64,000 nucleotides of DNA from Haladaptatus sp. QDMS2 (GTDB taxonomy: Archaea > Halobacteriota > Halobacteria > Halobacteriales > Halococcaceae). Below, piece after piece: positions 4,836 to 8,484 of the stretch (positions within the stretch are counted from its first letter, which is position 1; each line of letters opens with the position of its first letter). The notes beneath the pieces are model-generated. The model made no database searches and had not been told where the DNA came from. It saw only the letters and a program-made list of their open reading frames with translations. Location: positions 1,612,001-1,676,000 of the forward strand of contig NZ_CP119791.1 in the NCBI RefSeq assembly GCF_029338295.1. The letters are read 5' to 3'. The position numbers and the translations under genes are program-made.

Positions 4836-5519
4836 ATGCAGCCCCGTTTCGTCGGGCGGTTGGGACTCGCGGACGCGGTCACCGTCGCCAACGCGGCTCT
4901 CGGCTTTCTGGCCGCCGCCGTGGCGATGGTCGACCCGTCGCTCGCCGCGCGACTGATACTGCTCGCCGCCGTCGCCGACGGACTGGACGGCGTCATCGCC
5001 CGGAAGATGGGCGGGACGCCGGTCGGTGACTACCTCGACTCGCTCGCGGACGTGGCCTCGTTTGGCGTCGCCCCCGCGTTGTTCGTCGTGAGCGTCGCCA
5101 ACGCGGAGTGGGGCCTCGTTCTCGGTGACCTCTCGATGCGAGGCGTCGCCGCACTTGGTCTGCCCGCGCTGTTCGTCGCCGCGGCGGTCATCAGACTGGG
5201 GCTTTACACCGCCTACGACGTGGCGAAACACACGACAGAGGGCGTCCAATCGACGCTCGCGGCGACGATACTCGCCGTCGTCTTTCTCGCCGGCTTCCAG
5301 GGAGCGACGCTGCTCGTGGGACTTGCCGGGCTCTTTGCGTACCTCATGGTCACGACGATTCAGTACCCGGAACTGTACGCCCGCGACGCGATTGCCATGG
5401 GCATGATTCAGGCGCTCGCCATCCTCGCACCACTGGCGTTCGACCGCATCTTCCCAAAGGGCCTGCTGGTGGCCGCGGTAGCCTACCTCGTGTTGGCTCC
5501 GCGCTTTTACTGGCGATAA
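4836..5519 (+). CDS. pssA: CDP-alcohol phosphatidyltransferase, archaetidylserine synthase (PssA type)
   Basis: A 227-residue multi-pass membrane enzyme. The CDP-alcohol phosphotransferase signature is visible: Asp48, Asp51-Gly52, Ala55-Arg56, Gly64, Asp68 and Asp72, followed by SFGVAPA, typical of serine-type enzymes. The spacing between AR and Gly64 is one residue shorter than the textbook motif. It should move an archaetidyl group from CDP-archaeol to serine. Haloarchaeal PssA feeds archaetidylethanolamine synthesis, which is linked to ArtA-dependent anchoring of surface proteins. About six hydrophobic helices follow the motif. The glycerol- or inositol-type enzyme is a less likely alternative. 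Confidence 0.8.
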   Translation: MQPRFVGRLGLADAVTVANAALGFLAAAVAMVDPSLAARLILLAAVADGLDGVIARKMGGTPVGDYLDSLADVASFGVAPALFVVSVANAEWGLVLGDLSMRGVAALGLPALFVAAAVIRLGLYTAYDVAKHTTEGVQSTLAATILAVVFLAGFQGATLLVGLAGLFAYLMVTTIQYPELYARDAIAMGMIQALAILAPLAFDRIFPKGLLVAAVAYLVLAPRFYWR

Positions 5520-5566: not shown

Positions 5567-6847
5567 ATGAGCAACGGGGACGAGGAACCCGAGACCCCCG
5601 CGGAGGACGCACCCGCAGTAACACCCGAGTCGTTCGAAGAACGCCTGGCTGAGGTCGAAGAGTCCTTAGACGAGGCGGAAACCGAGTCTGACCTCGACGA
5701 AATCGAGGCGCGACTCGACGCTCTCGAGACGGACCTCGGAGCGGCCGAACTCCCAGAACCGGAGGACGACGACGAGGACGACCCCCGCGAGGAACTGGAA
5801 TCGAAACTGAGCGACCTGCGAGACGCACTCGAAGACGCTCGTGGCCCGTACGCCGAGGACGTCGTGAGTGAAATCGAGGCCGCGAAAACCAAAATCGAGG
5901 AAGGCGAGTGGACCGAGAAAGGCGACGACGAAGTCGTCACGGCCGCCGGGTCCTACGCCGACCGGATGGGCGAGATTCTCGATGCCTCGTTCGTCGTCGC
6001 GAGCGATTCGCACTACGACGTGCTCAACACGCTCGACGAAATCGCAGAAGCCGTCGAAGCCGCGAATCTCGACGCAGACGAGGACGAAGAGACCATCGCG
6101 GCACTCGTCGAAGCCACCGAAGAGTTCAAACAGGACCTGGAGGACGCCCAGGAGTGGGACGACCTCACTGTCGTCGAAAAGCTCGACGCACAGGGCTTCT
6201 ACGACGTGCTGACGCCGAAGAATCGCAAGGACTACCCACCGGAACTCAACGCGGTTCGCATCTACGAAAAGGAGAACAACCCGGAGATGATTCTCCTCGC
6301 ACTCGACATGCTCGAGTCGAACTTCATGCAGGAACACTGCATCGAAGCCCTCGGCCGCATGGGGTCGCCTGAGGCCTACGACGCGATGATCGGTCCGGCC
6401 CAGAAGCGCAAGAAGCCACAGATCGAAGTGCTCGGCAAAATCGGCAACCCGGACGCACTGGAGACGCTGCTCGAATACGTCGAAGCCGACAACGACCCAC
6501 AACTCCAGAAGGTCACGATGAAGGCACTCGGCGAAATCGGTGACGAAGAGGCCACGCAGGTCATCGCTAACAACCTCGTCGCGGAGAACGAAGGCGTTCG
6601 CAGCCAGGCGGCGCGCGCACTCGGCCTCCTCGGCGACACCCGCGCCGTCGAACCGCTCGGCGACGTGCTCGACGACGACGAGTCCGACACCGTCCGCGCG
6701 AGCGCCGCGTGGGCACTCAACCAGATTGGGACGAAGGCGGCCCTCGAAGAGGCTGCCCGCTACGACGAAGACGCGTCCTACATCCTGCAGGTCGAAGCCG
6801 AGAAGGCGTCTGCTGCGCTCAAACAGACGACCGAACCGGCGGCCTGA
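5567..6847 (+). CDS. HEAT-repeat protein with long acidic coiled N-terminus
   Basis: A 426-residue soluble protein. Residues 1-90 are extremely Glu/Asp-rich and likely helical. About 110-210 is a helical middle domain. From roughly residue 235 to 415 come tandem helical pairs of the HEAT/PBS-lyase type, seen as EALGRMGSPEAYDAMI, EVLGKIGNPDALETLLEYV, KALGEIGDEEATQVI, RALGLLGDTRAVEPL and WALNQIGTKAALEEA. Such repeats are protein-binding scaffolds. No catalytic motif is visible, and the partner is unknown. A TATA-like TCTTAGG at 5536-5542 sits about 27 bases before the ATG, in line with a leaderless transcript. Confidence 0.8.
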   Translation: MSNGDEEPETPAEDAPAVTPESFEERLAEVEESLDEAETESDLDEIEARLDALETDLGAAELPEPEDDDEDDPREELESKLSDLRDALEDARGPYAEDVVSEIEAAKTKIEEGEWTEKGDDEVVTAAGSYADRMGEILDASFVVASDSHYDVLNTLDEIAEAVEAANLDADEDEETIAALVEATEEFKQDLEDAQEWDDLTVVEKLDAQGFYDVLTPKNRKDYPPELNAVRIYEKENNPEMILLALDMLESNFMQEHCIEALGRMGSPEAYDAMIGPAQKRKKPQIEVLGKIGNPDALETLLEYVEADNDPQLQKVTMKALGEIGDEEATQVIANNLVAENEGVRSQAARALGLLGDTRAVEPLGDVLDDDESDTVRASAAWALNQIGTKAALEEAARYDEDASYILQVEAEKASAALKQTTEPAA

Positions 6848-6858
6848 CCGGACGAACC

Positions 6859-6981
6859 TTTTTACACGAAGCTGGGACCACTCCGTGGCGTGTTCGTCCG
6901 TCTGGTCCTCGCACTCGCGCTCGTGCTCACCGTGTTCCAGCGACCGCGTCACCGACCGCAGACTAGCCCACGTTCGTCGCG
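6859..6981 (+). other. Displaced promoter, start and signal peptide of the following PLD-like gene
   Basis: TTTTTAC at 6860-6866 is a TATA-like box about 27 bases before GTG 6890. From that GTG a signal-peptide-like stretch reads VFVRLVLALALVLTVF, but it is in frame 2 while the PLD protein is in frame 1. In frame 1 the continuation reads VPATASPTAD and then TAG (6964-6966), followed without a break by PTFVAVYPNP. The natural product would join these pieces. The segment therefore looks like a damaged 5' end: a one-base deletion near 6935-6942 plus a nonsense codon, or a single shift after 6966. Confidence 0.5.
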
Positions 6982-8484
6982 GTGTACCCAAATCCGCTCA
7001 CGGCAGACGACGCGGGCGAGTACGTCGTCATCGAGTTTCCGACAGCCAAAACAGGCAACTGGACGCTATCGGATGGAGAGACGACCGTCTCGCTGTCGCG
7101 TGTGAATTTGGCGGGACCTTGCGCCCTGACCGCCGAACTAGGGGTAACCGCAAATCGAACCGAGTATCCAGTCGCCACACTCCCGACTGCGCTCGAACTG
7201 TCGAACGGCGGGGAGACGCTAACGCTCCGGCACAAGAGAAACGTCTTGGATACCGTCACGTACGAGAACGCACCGCCGAGCGAACGGTGGGAGCGGACGG
7301 ACGTAGGATGGACGTGGGAACCCCTCGGTGCAACGAACCGCCCGGTCGTTTCGGTTGGACCTGTTCCCGTCACGACGTTCCTCCTCCCGGACGCACCAAA
7401 TGCGACGCTCGACGCAATCCAGACTGCAGACAGTCGCATCCTCCTCGCGGGTTACACCTTCTCTTCGTCGCGGGTGGCAGACGCCCTCGTCGCTGCCAAC
7501 GACAGTGGCATCGCTGTTCGAATACTGCTCGACTGCGACCCCGTCGGCGGGATGACGACTCAGCAGGCGGCGACGCTCGACCGACTCACAGCCGCAGGTA
7601 TCTCCGTCAAACTCGTCGGTGGCCCGCGTGCTCGCTATTCGTTTCACCACGCCAAGTACGCCGTCGTGGACGACCGTGCTATCGTCCTCACAGAGAATTG
7701 GAAGCCGGCGGGAGTCGGCGGTAACGCGAGTCGTGGCTGGGGAGTCGTCGTGGCGAACGCCACGCTCGCAGACGAACTCGCGGCCACCTTCCGGGCGGAT
7801 GCGGAGTGGCGCGATACAACGGCGTGGGAGCGGGCACGCTCCACTCGCGAGTTCGTTTCAATCCCGCCGGCCAACGGGTCGTATCCGCGTCGCTTCCGCC
7901 CGCAATCCCTCAGCGCCGAGTCCGTCGAACTGCTCGTCACCCCGGACAACGCCGAACCCCGACTCGTCGAGCACCTCGATGCGGCAGAGGAATCGATTCT
8001 GGTAGAGCAGGTCACGATTGGCGGTCGTGACCACGCGCTGTTGGAAGCTACCCTTCGGGCAGCGCATCGCGGCGTCTCGGTACGAATTCTCCTCAGCGGC
8101 GCGTGGTACGCCCGCGAGGAAAACGAGGCACTTGCCACCGCACTGAACGACCGGGCGCGTAGGGAAGGACTTCCGCTCGAAGTTCGCGTAGCAGAGCCAC
8201 GCGGCAGATTCGAGAAGATTCACGCGAAGGGCATCATCGTGGACGGCGACACAGTCGTCCTCGGCAGTCTGAATTGGAACGACCACGCGCTCAGAGAGAA
8301 TCGAGAGGTGGTAGTCGTTTTGCACGGCGACGCCATCGGCGACTATTTCACGAGCGTTTTCGACGCAGATTGTCGCGGCGGGTCGTGGTGGGTGTCGATG
8401 GGCGTGCTCGGCGCGGTTGCACTGTCGGCACTCGCGGCGGGAGTAGTTGGAAAGAAAGTTCGTTTCGTGGTCAGTCGTGGGTGA
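6982..8484 (+). CDS. Phospholipase D-like protein with lamin-tail domain, possibly a pseudogene at its 5' end
   Basis: From GTG 6982 there are 500 residues. Residues 1-120 resemble a lamin-tail domain. Two PLD domains follow, each with a complete HxK(x4)D motif: His223-Lys225-Asp230, and HAK...D near residue 410. Near 470-492 is one transmembrane helix followed by a basic tail, so the catalytic part should lie outside the cell. Such proteins are phosphodiesterases acting on lipids or nucleic acids. The start is doubtful: an exported protein needs a signal peptide, and one lies just upstream in another frame behind a stop. Codon use stays normal up to the break, so decay would be recent. The end overlaps the convergent nuclease gene by 14 bases. 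Confidence 0.7.
   Translation: MYPNPLTADDAGEYVVIEFPTAKTGNWTLSDGETTVSLSRVNLAGPCALTAELGVTANRTEYPVATLPTALELSNGGETLTLRHKRNVLDTVTYENAPPSERWERTDVGWTWEPLGATNRPVVSVGPVPVTTFLLPDAPNATLDAIQTADSRILLAGYTFSSSRVADALVAANDSGIAVRILLDCDPVGGMTTQQAATLDRLTAAGISVKLVGGPRARYSFHHAKYAVVDDRAIVLTENWKPAGVGGNASRGWGVVVANATLADELAATFRADAEWRDTTAWERARSTREFVSIPPANGSYPRRFRPQSLSAESVELLVTPDNAEPRLVEHLDAAEESILVEQVTIGGRDHALLEATLRAAHRGVSVRILLSGAWYAREENEALATALNDRARREGLPLEVRVAEPRGRFEKIHAKGIIVDGDTVVLGSLNWNDHALRENREVVVVLHGDAIGDYFTSVFDADCRGGSWWVSMGVLGAVALSALAAGVVGKKVRFVVSRG

Follow-up and report, generated by a model that had tools for sequence, protein, structure and literature searches.

Can a signal peptide in one reading frame and an enzyme body in another belong to a single working gene, or is the gene dead? 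The question is raised by a locus in the window, by which we mean the whole stretch of 64,000 nucleotides that was analysed. It comes from contig C1 of a genome of 3.88 Mb in 3 contigs, and the host is haloarchaeal, judged from its relatives. A phospholipase D (PLD) gene is flanked there by a HEAT-repeat gene (5567-6847) and by a convergent gene that we take from its sequence to be of the DHH type. All features of the PLD gene given below are on the plus strand. A TATA-like promoter element, TTTTTA, is found at 6859-6864, which is 26-31 bases upstream of a GTG start codon at 6890-6892. The distance between this T-rich box and the start is that expected of a leaderless transcript, and the GTG is probably a leaderless start. 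Leaderless transcripts make up 72% of the protein-coding transcripts of Haloferax volcanii, and some of these have GUG starts (PMC4983044). The signal peptide is encoded in frame 2 at 6890-6937 (VFVRLVLALALVLTVF) and resembles that of an orthologue, L003 (VFARVVLVLALVLTAF). Continuing from 6890 in frame 2, the product is closed by a stop at 7103-7105 after 71 amino acids. In frame 1, VPATASPTAD leads into a TAG at 6964-6966, and this is followed by PTFVAVYPNPL and the body of the protein. The body is open from 6967 to 8484, and its earliest possible in-frame start is GTG 6982, which leaves 500 amino acids.

It is worth considering what the intact protein would do. The window protein matches PLDc_2 in two stretches (E 3.8e-37). 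The initial annotation called both HKD motifs intact, and both are present in alignment A1: HAKYAVVD at 7648-7671 (PLDc_2) and HAKGIIVD at 8221-8244 (PF00614). It also placed a lamin-tail domain after the TAG. Here the outcome is divided, as 2 of 8 family members have a Pfam LTD match (best E 2.3e-4) and the window protein itself has none. The lamin-tail label therefore rests on the relatives, and the limits of 6982-7350 are approximate. A C-terminal hydrophobic helix at 8389-8451 (predicted helix 470-486, low confidence) is presumed to be a membrane anchor. The predicted model has a mean pLDDT of 67.9. A fold search puts phospholipase D on top with PLD3 and PLD4 among the matches (rmsd about 8-10 A), and sequence matches in the PDB include NucT and PLD3. 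From the PLD match with its two HKD motifs, the weak lamin-tail domain of the relatives, the signal peptide and the C-terminal helix, we suggest that the intact protein would be a surface-anchored phosphodiesterase, most likely a nuclease. NucT, DrmC of DISARM and PLD3/PLD4 have the PLD fold with HKD motifs in common with it, but their accessory domains differ. Membership of DISARM DrmC or NucT was rejected since all NCBIfam equivalog matches are far below their cut-offs (DrmC has 68.8 of 133 bits).

Hvo_1477 of Haloferax volcanii is a surface lamin-tail nuclease that is required for growth on DNA (PMC3929857). Lamin-tail proteins of this kind also come up in PMC5118699. Hvo_1477 has the layout of an exported haloarchaeal hydrolase with a lamin-tail domain, a layout that the PLD protein shares as far as the lamin tail of its relatives goes, and the PLD protein too is likely a cell-surface nuclease. 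However, Hvo_1477 has a thermonuclease (SNase) domain and a lipobox in the place of the PLD domains and the C-terminal helix. Its catalytic family is a different one, which makes it an analogue and not an orthologue. The window's own genome has two SNase-family (PF00565) matches (G000:C2:453558-453935 and G000:C1:1755589-1755963), which are candidates for a remaining surface nuclease. A search of one literature library found no paper on haloarchaeal PLD pseudogenes or frameshifts, or on archaeal proteins that combine a lamin tail with phospholipase D.

The origin of the two frames can be read from orthologues in two other species of the genus (L002 and L003). The initial annotation had proposed such a comparison, and both congeners carry the signal peptide in one unbroken frame with a body that is 67-68% identical to the window's. 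They have the same GTG start, two HKD motifs, C-terminal helix and convergent DHH-type neighbour, and they keep the promoter box as CCTTTTT. The window copy in contrast is split over two frames with a TAG before the body. It has the two HKD PLD domains of an exported LTD/PLD protein, but the signal peptide is out of frame with them. Both congeners read on from this signal peptide into the body without a change of frame, so its presence in frame 2 of the window is not due to chance. The initial annotation was correct in placing the TATA box, the GTG start and the signal peptide in frame 2, and also in placing the mature protein in frame 1 with a TAG after VPATASPTAD, which we confirmed by reading and by tblastn.

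Relative to L002 and L003 the 5' end of the window gene is one base short. A single gap was slid along this end against both congeners over 304 positions. Placing it after 6932, 6933, 6934 or 6936 gives 219/304 matches and after 6935, 6937 or 6938 gives 218/304, so the best-fitting interval for the missing base, where frame 2 passes into frame 1, is 6932-6938. The placements shown after 6965-6973 give at most 200/304. In tblastn from both congeners frame 1 is entered at 6934 or 6937, and the alignment continues past the TAG at 6964, whose column is a Ser codon in L002 and an Ala codon in L003. The window copy thus carries two lesions at a distance of about 30 bases, first a missing base and then a stop aligned with sense codons. 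One can imagine a single lesion instead, with the frame change after the TAG so that the TAG was never in frame. This model is rejected on the base matches of 6937-6966, which are 17/30 and 14/30 to the two congeners with the gap before this segment and 5/30 to each with the gap after it. An imperfect tandem repeat (10-nt copies at 12-nt spacing) lies between both lesions at 6938-6959. It is a possible slippage substrate and may hint at one local slippage event.

The initial annotation raised recoding as a way for the exported enzyme to be made. Here programmed -1 frameshifting, with or without readthrough of the TAG, would connect the signal peptide with the body. One -1 shift downstream of the TAG, within 6968-7103, would be enough to join the frames, and there are weak single-tRNA slip sites at 6968, 7037 and 7049. 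However, no slippery heptamer is found in 6890-7105, and the RNA fold is ordinary with a z of 0.41 (pseudoknots are outside the model). By base-level homology the frame changes upstream of the TAG. A -1 shift at that site would run into the stop, and readthrough would be needed as well. Pyrrolysine as the meaning of the TAG was rejected, since the best PylS match in the genome scores 22.4 bits against a cut-off of 178.15, a cut-off that most control genomes also score below. The joint is not conserved either: intact relatives are read in one frame and need no recoding, while broken relatives break at other residues. With heptamer, structure and conservation all absent we reject recoding, and we regard a programmed shift here as very improbable. 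That part of the initial annotation is not supported.

Its claim that the damage is recent fares better. The body is open, both HKD motifs are kept and constraint is the same as in the congeners, which places the damage recently on the window branch. In a three-species codon model the body has an omega of 0.123 on the window branch versus 0.120 elsewhere (range about 0.08-0.17). Values of 0.08 and 0.18 are both rejected (2dlnL 4.34 and 4.77), and this model sees no relaxed constraint on the window body among the three species. None of ten neighbouring genes has a significant shift in omega. If omega went to 1 after inactivation, by arithmetic at most about 6% of the window branch could be neutral. 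Of 66 columns conserved in at least 24 of 25 other sequences, four of which come from broken or partial copies, one is changed in the window, two in L002 and none in L003. No lesion was seen in the 1500-base body. An unchanged omega means that the loss is either very recent or not real. It must be noted that the window has a Cys at 8371-8373, within the C-terminal DADW stretch, where the other seven rows of alignment A1 have Trp. This substitution could be a further sign of decay.

Two lesions in about 30 bases and none in the body is tighter clustering than independent decay usually gives. Such clustering would be in keeping with a single complex mutation, with a local sequence error or with a body that is still in use. 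Continued use would mean that a shortened protein without a signal peptide is still made from GTG 6982 and that the damage before this codon is tolerated. Both lesions do precede 6982, and the body is under the same constraint as in the congeners, as one would expect in that case. However, 6982 falls inside the conserved FVAVYPNP stretch and the codon is GTC in the congeners. No Shine-Dalgarno-like sequence or second promoter is evident by eye before it, and an enzyme with this layout is expected outside the cell. We consider an internal start unlikely. With such a start, loss of the export signal would have turned a normally exported nuclease-like enzyme into an intracellular or differently placed one in this species, which would be relocation and not gene death, but we give this little credence.

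A local sequencing or assembly error would mean that the real gene is intact and that, as in the congeners, an exported enzyme is made. The open body under unchanged constraint, the near-universal presence of the gene described below and the clustering of the two anomalies would all fit such an error. The quality of the surrounding sequence speaks against it. Orthologous stretches of 40 kb from each congener are largely collinear with the window, and non-overlapping stop-to-stop open frames were picked mechanically for the comparison (32 with G001 and 34 with G002). Stops inside aligned stretches were flagged in 8/32 and 7/34, along with one adjacent frame-shifted piece in each, an ORF that runs antisense to the gene at 4836-5519. 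Apart from those of the PLD gene, the flagged stops, sorted by eye, precede a conserved start, fall close to the end of an ORF or belong to a shadow frame. Since these other stops lie outside conserved coding sequence, the sequence compared is not error-ridden. General poor quality was rejected, as the PLD gene is the only gene that is clearly broken, by eye, in the roughly 40 kb compared, and a gross sequence error is unlikely. The assembly is in 3 contigs with 99.96% completeness. One of the two changes is of the substitution type and the other is an indel outside any long homopolymer; the only runs of at least 4 in 6859-7110 are the T5 of the promoter and AAAA at 7048. A local error is therefore a less likely account, although it has more to be said for it than the internal start.

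We argue that this is probably a pseudogene of recent origin, and that what was lost is the genome's only copy of an exported, membrane-anchored lamin-tail/PLD nuclease-like gene. Close relatives have intact orthologues in one frame, the window copy has a disabling lesion, and the gene has one match only in its own genome with no second copy. Ribosomes that start at GTG 6890 would make a 71-residue dead-end peptide, and the exported enzyme would not be made. The loss would have to be tolerated, as it seemingly is in other lineages. Whether it is ordinary gene loss or sequence error, it is not a new decoding trick. If the loss is real, the locus illustrates cleanly how a nearly universal, single-copy gene for a haloarchaeal surface enzyme is lost while its start and a promoter-like box are still present. 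It is also a caution that recoding need not follow when a signal peptide is out of frame with its body.

The distribution of the gene argues in part against this pseudogene reading. A match is found in 285/293 genomes of the order, the window's own included, and in 254/255 of the better assemblies. A gene that is so nearly universal is not commonly lost. The open frame of the window, with a length of 505, is the shortest among 150 of the listed matches, and the next is 524. At 27 other orthologous loci the N-terminus has a hydrophobic signal in frame in 23, mostly from GTG. The remaining four (L033-L036) are broken or do not have the start of the gene in frame. Of 17 relatives in the window's family, four (G011, G014, G015 and G017) have the PLD gene in pieces, in three cases through a change of frame and in one case across two contigs. 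All four are draft assemblies with 72-88% completeness. The DHH neighbour is unbroken in 18/18 family genomes, own included. The break sites differ, being near residue 159 in L033, 67-70 in L034, 178-181 in L036 and 353-380 in G011, and mid-gene in G014 and G015. Counts at the level of the order are partial, since they come from 30 chosen genomes with multiple matches that were searched again, and many of the assemblies are draft. By coordinate arithmetic, without the sequences being read, 8 of these 30 have frame changes or large deletions (G054, G069, G148, G159, G164, G179, G189 and G280). In another three (G236, G261 and G277) the split is close to the second HKD region or coincides with the end of a contig. 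We sorted the other 19 as continuous-looking, split by a variable insertion or distant paralogues. Several other species thus carry independent breaks in the PLD gene, at sites other than that of the window, and these breaks, like the intact DHH neighbour, speak for the pseudogene reading.

Some of these breaks are apparently the work of integrating elements. The PLD gene of G236 is interrupted at the LNWN codons of its second HKD region (L042:1572-3278 and L043:10201-11613), and about 21 kb separates the two parts. A gene of the phage integrase family (PF00589, E 9.9e-14) begins 34 bases from the split. In G261, which belongs to a different family, the parts are on two contigs (L044:738-3658 and L045:1611-1733) with 15 bases in common at the LNWN motif. 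A related tyrosine integrase gene adjoins it here too, and its product is 52% identical over 424 residues to that of G236. The parts in G017 are also on two contigs (L018:1-1570 and L019:2100-2240), but the split is at the first HKD motif, with 11 common bases (CACCATCCCAA). Near the C-terminal part there is a recombinase-like gene, of the tyrosine type by eye. This is possibly a second kind of element that uses the other catalytic motif. Integrating elements thus seem to use the codons for the catalytic motifs of the PLD gene as attachment sites. Repeated independent breaks, some of them apparently made in this way, suggest that the enzyme, which has been little studied, is often dispensable and that its gene is a target for mobile elements. 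Directly beside the broken PLD gene of G017 there is also an ORF (L019:2254-3615) whose product looks by eye like a lipoprotein with a domain of the thermonuclease type, and which may encode a surface nuclease comparable to Hvo_1477.
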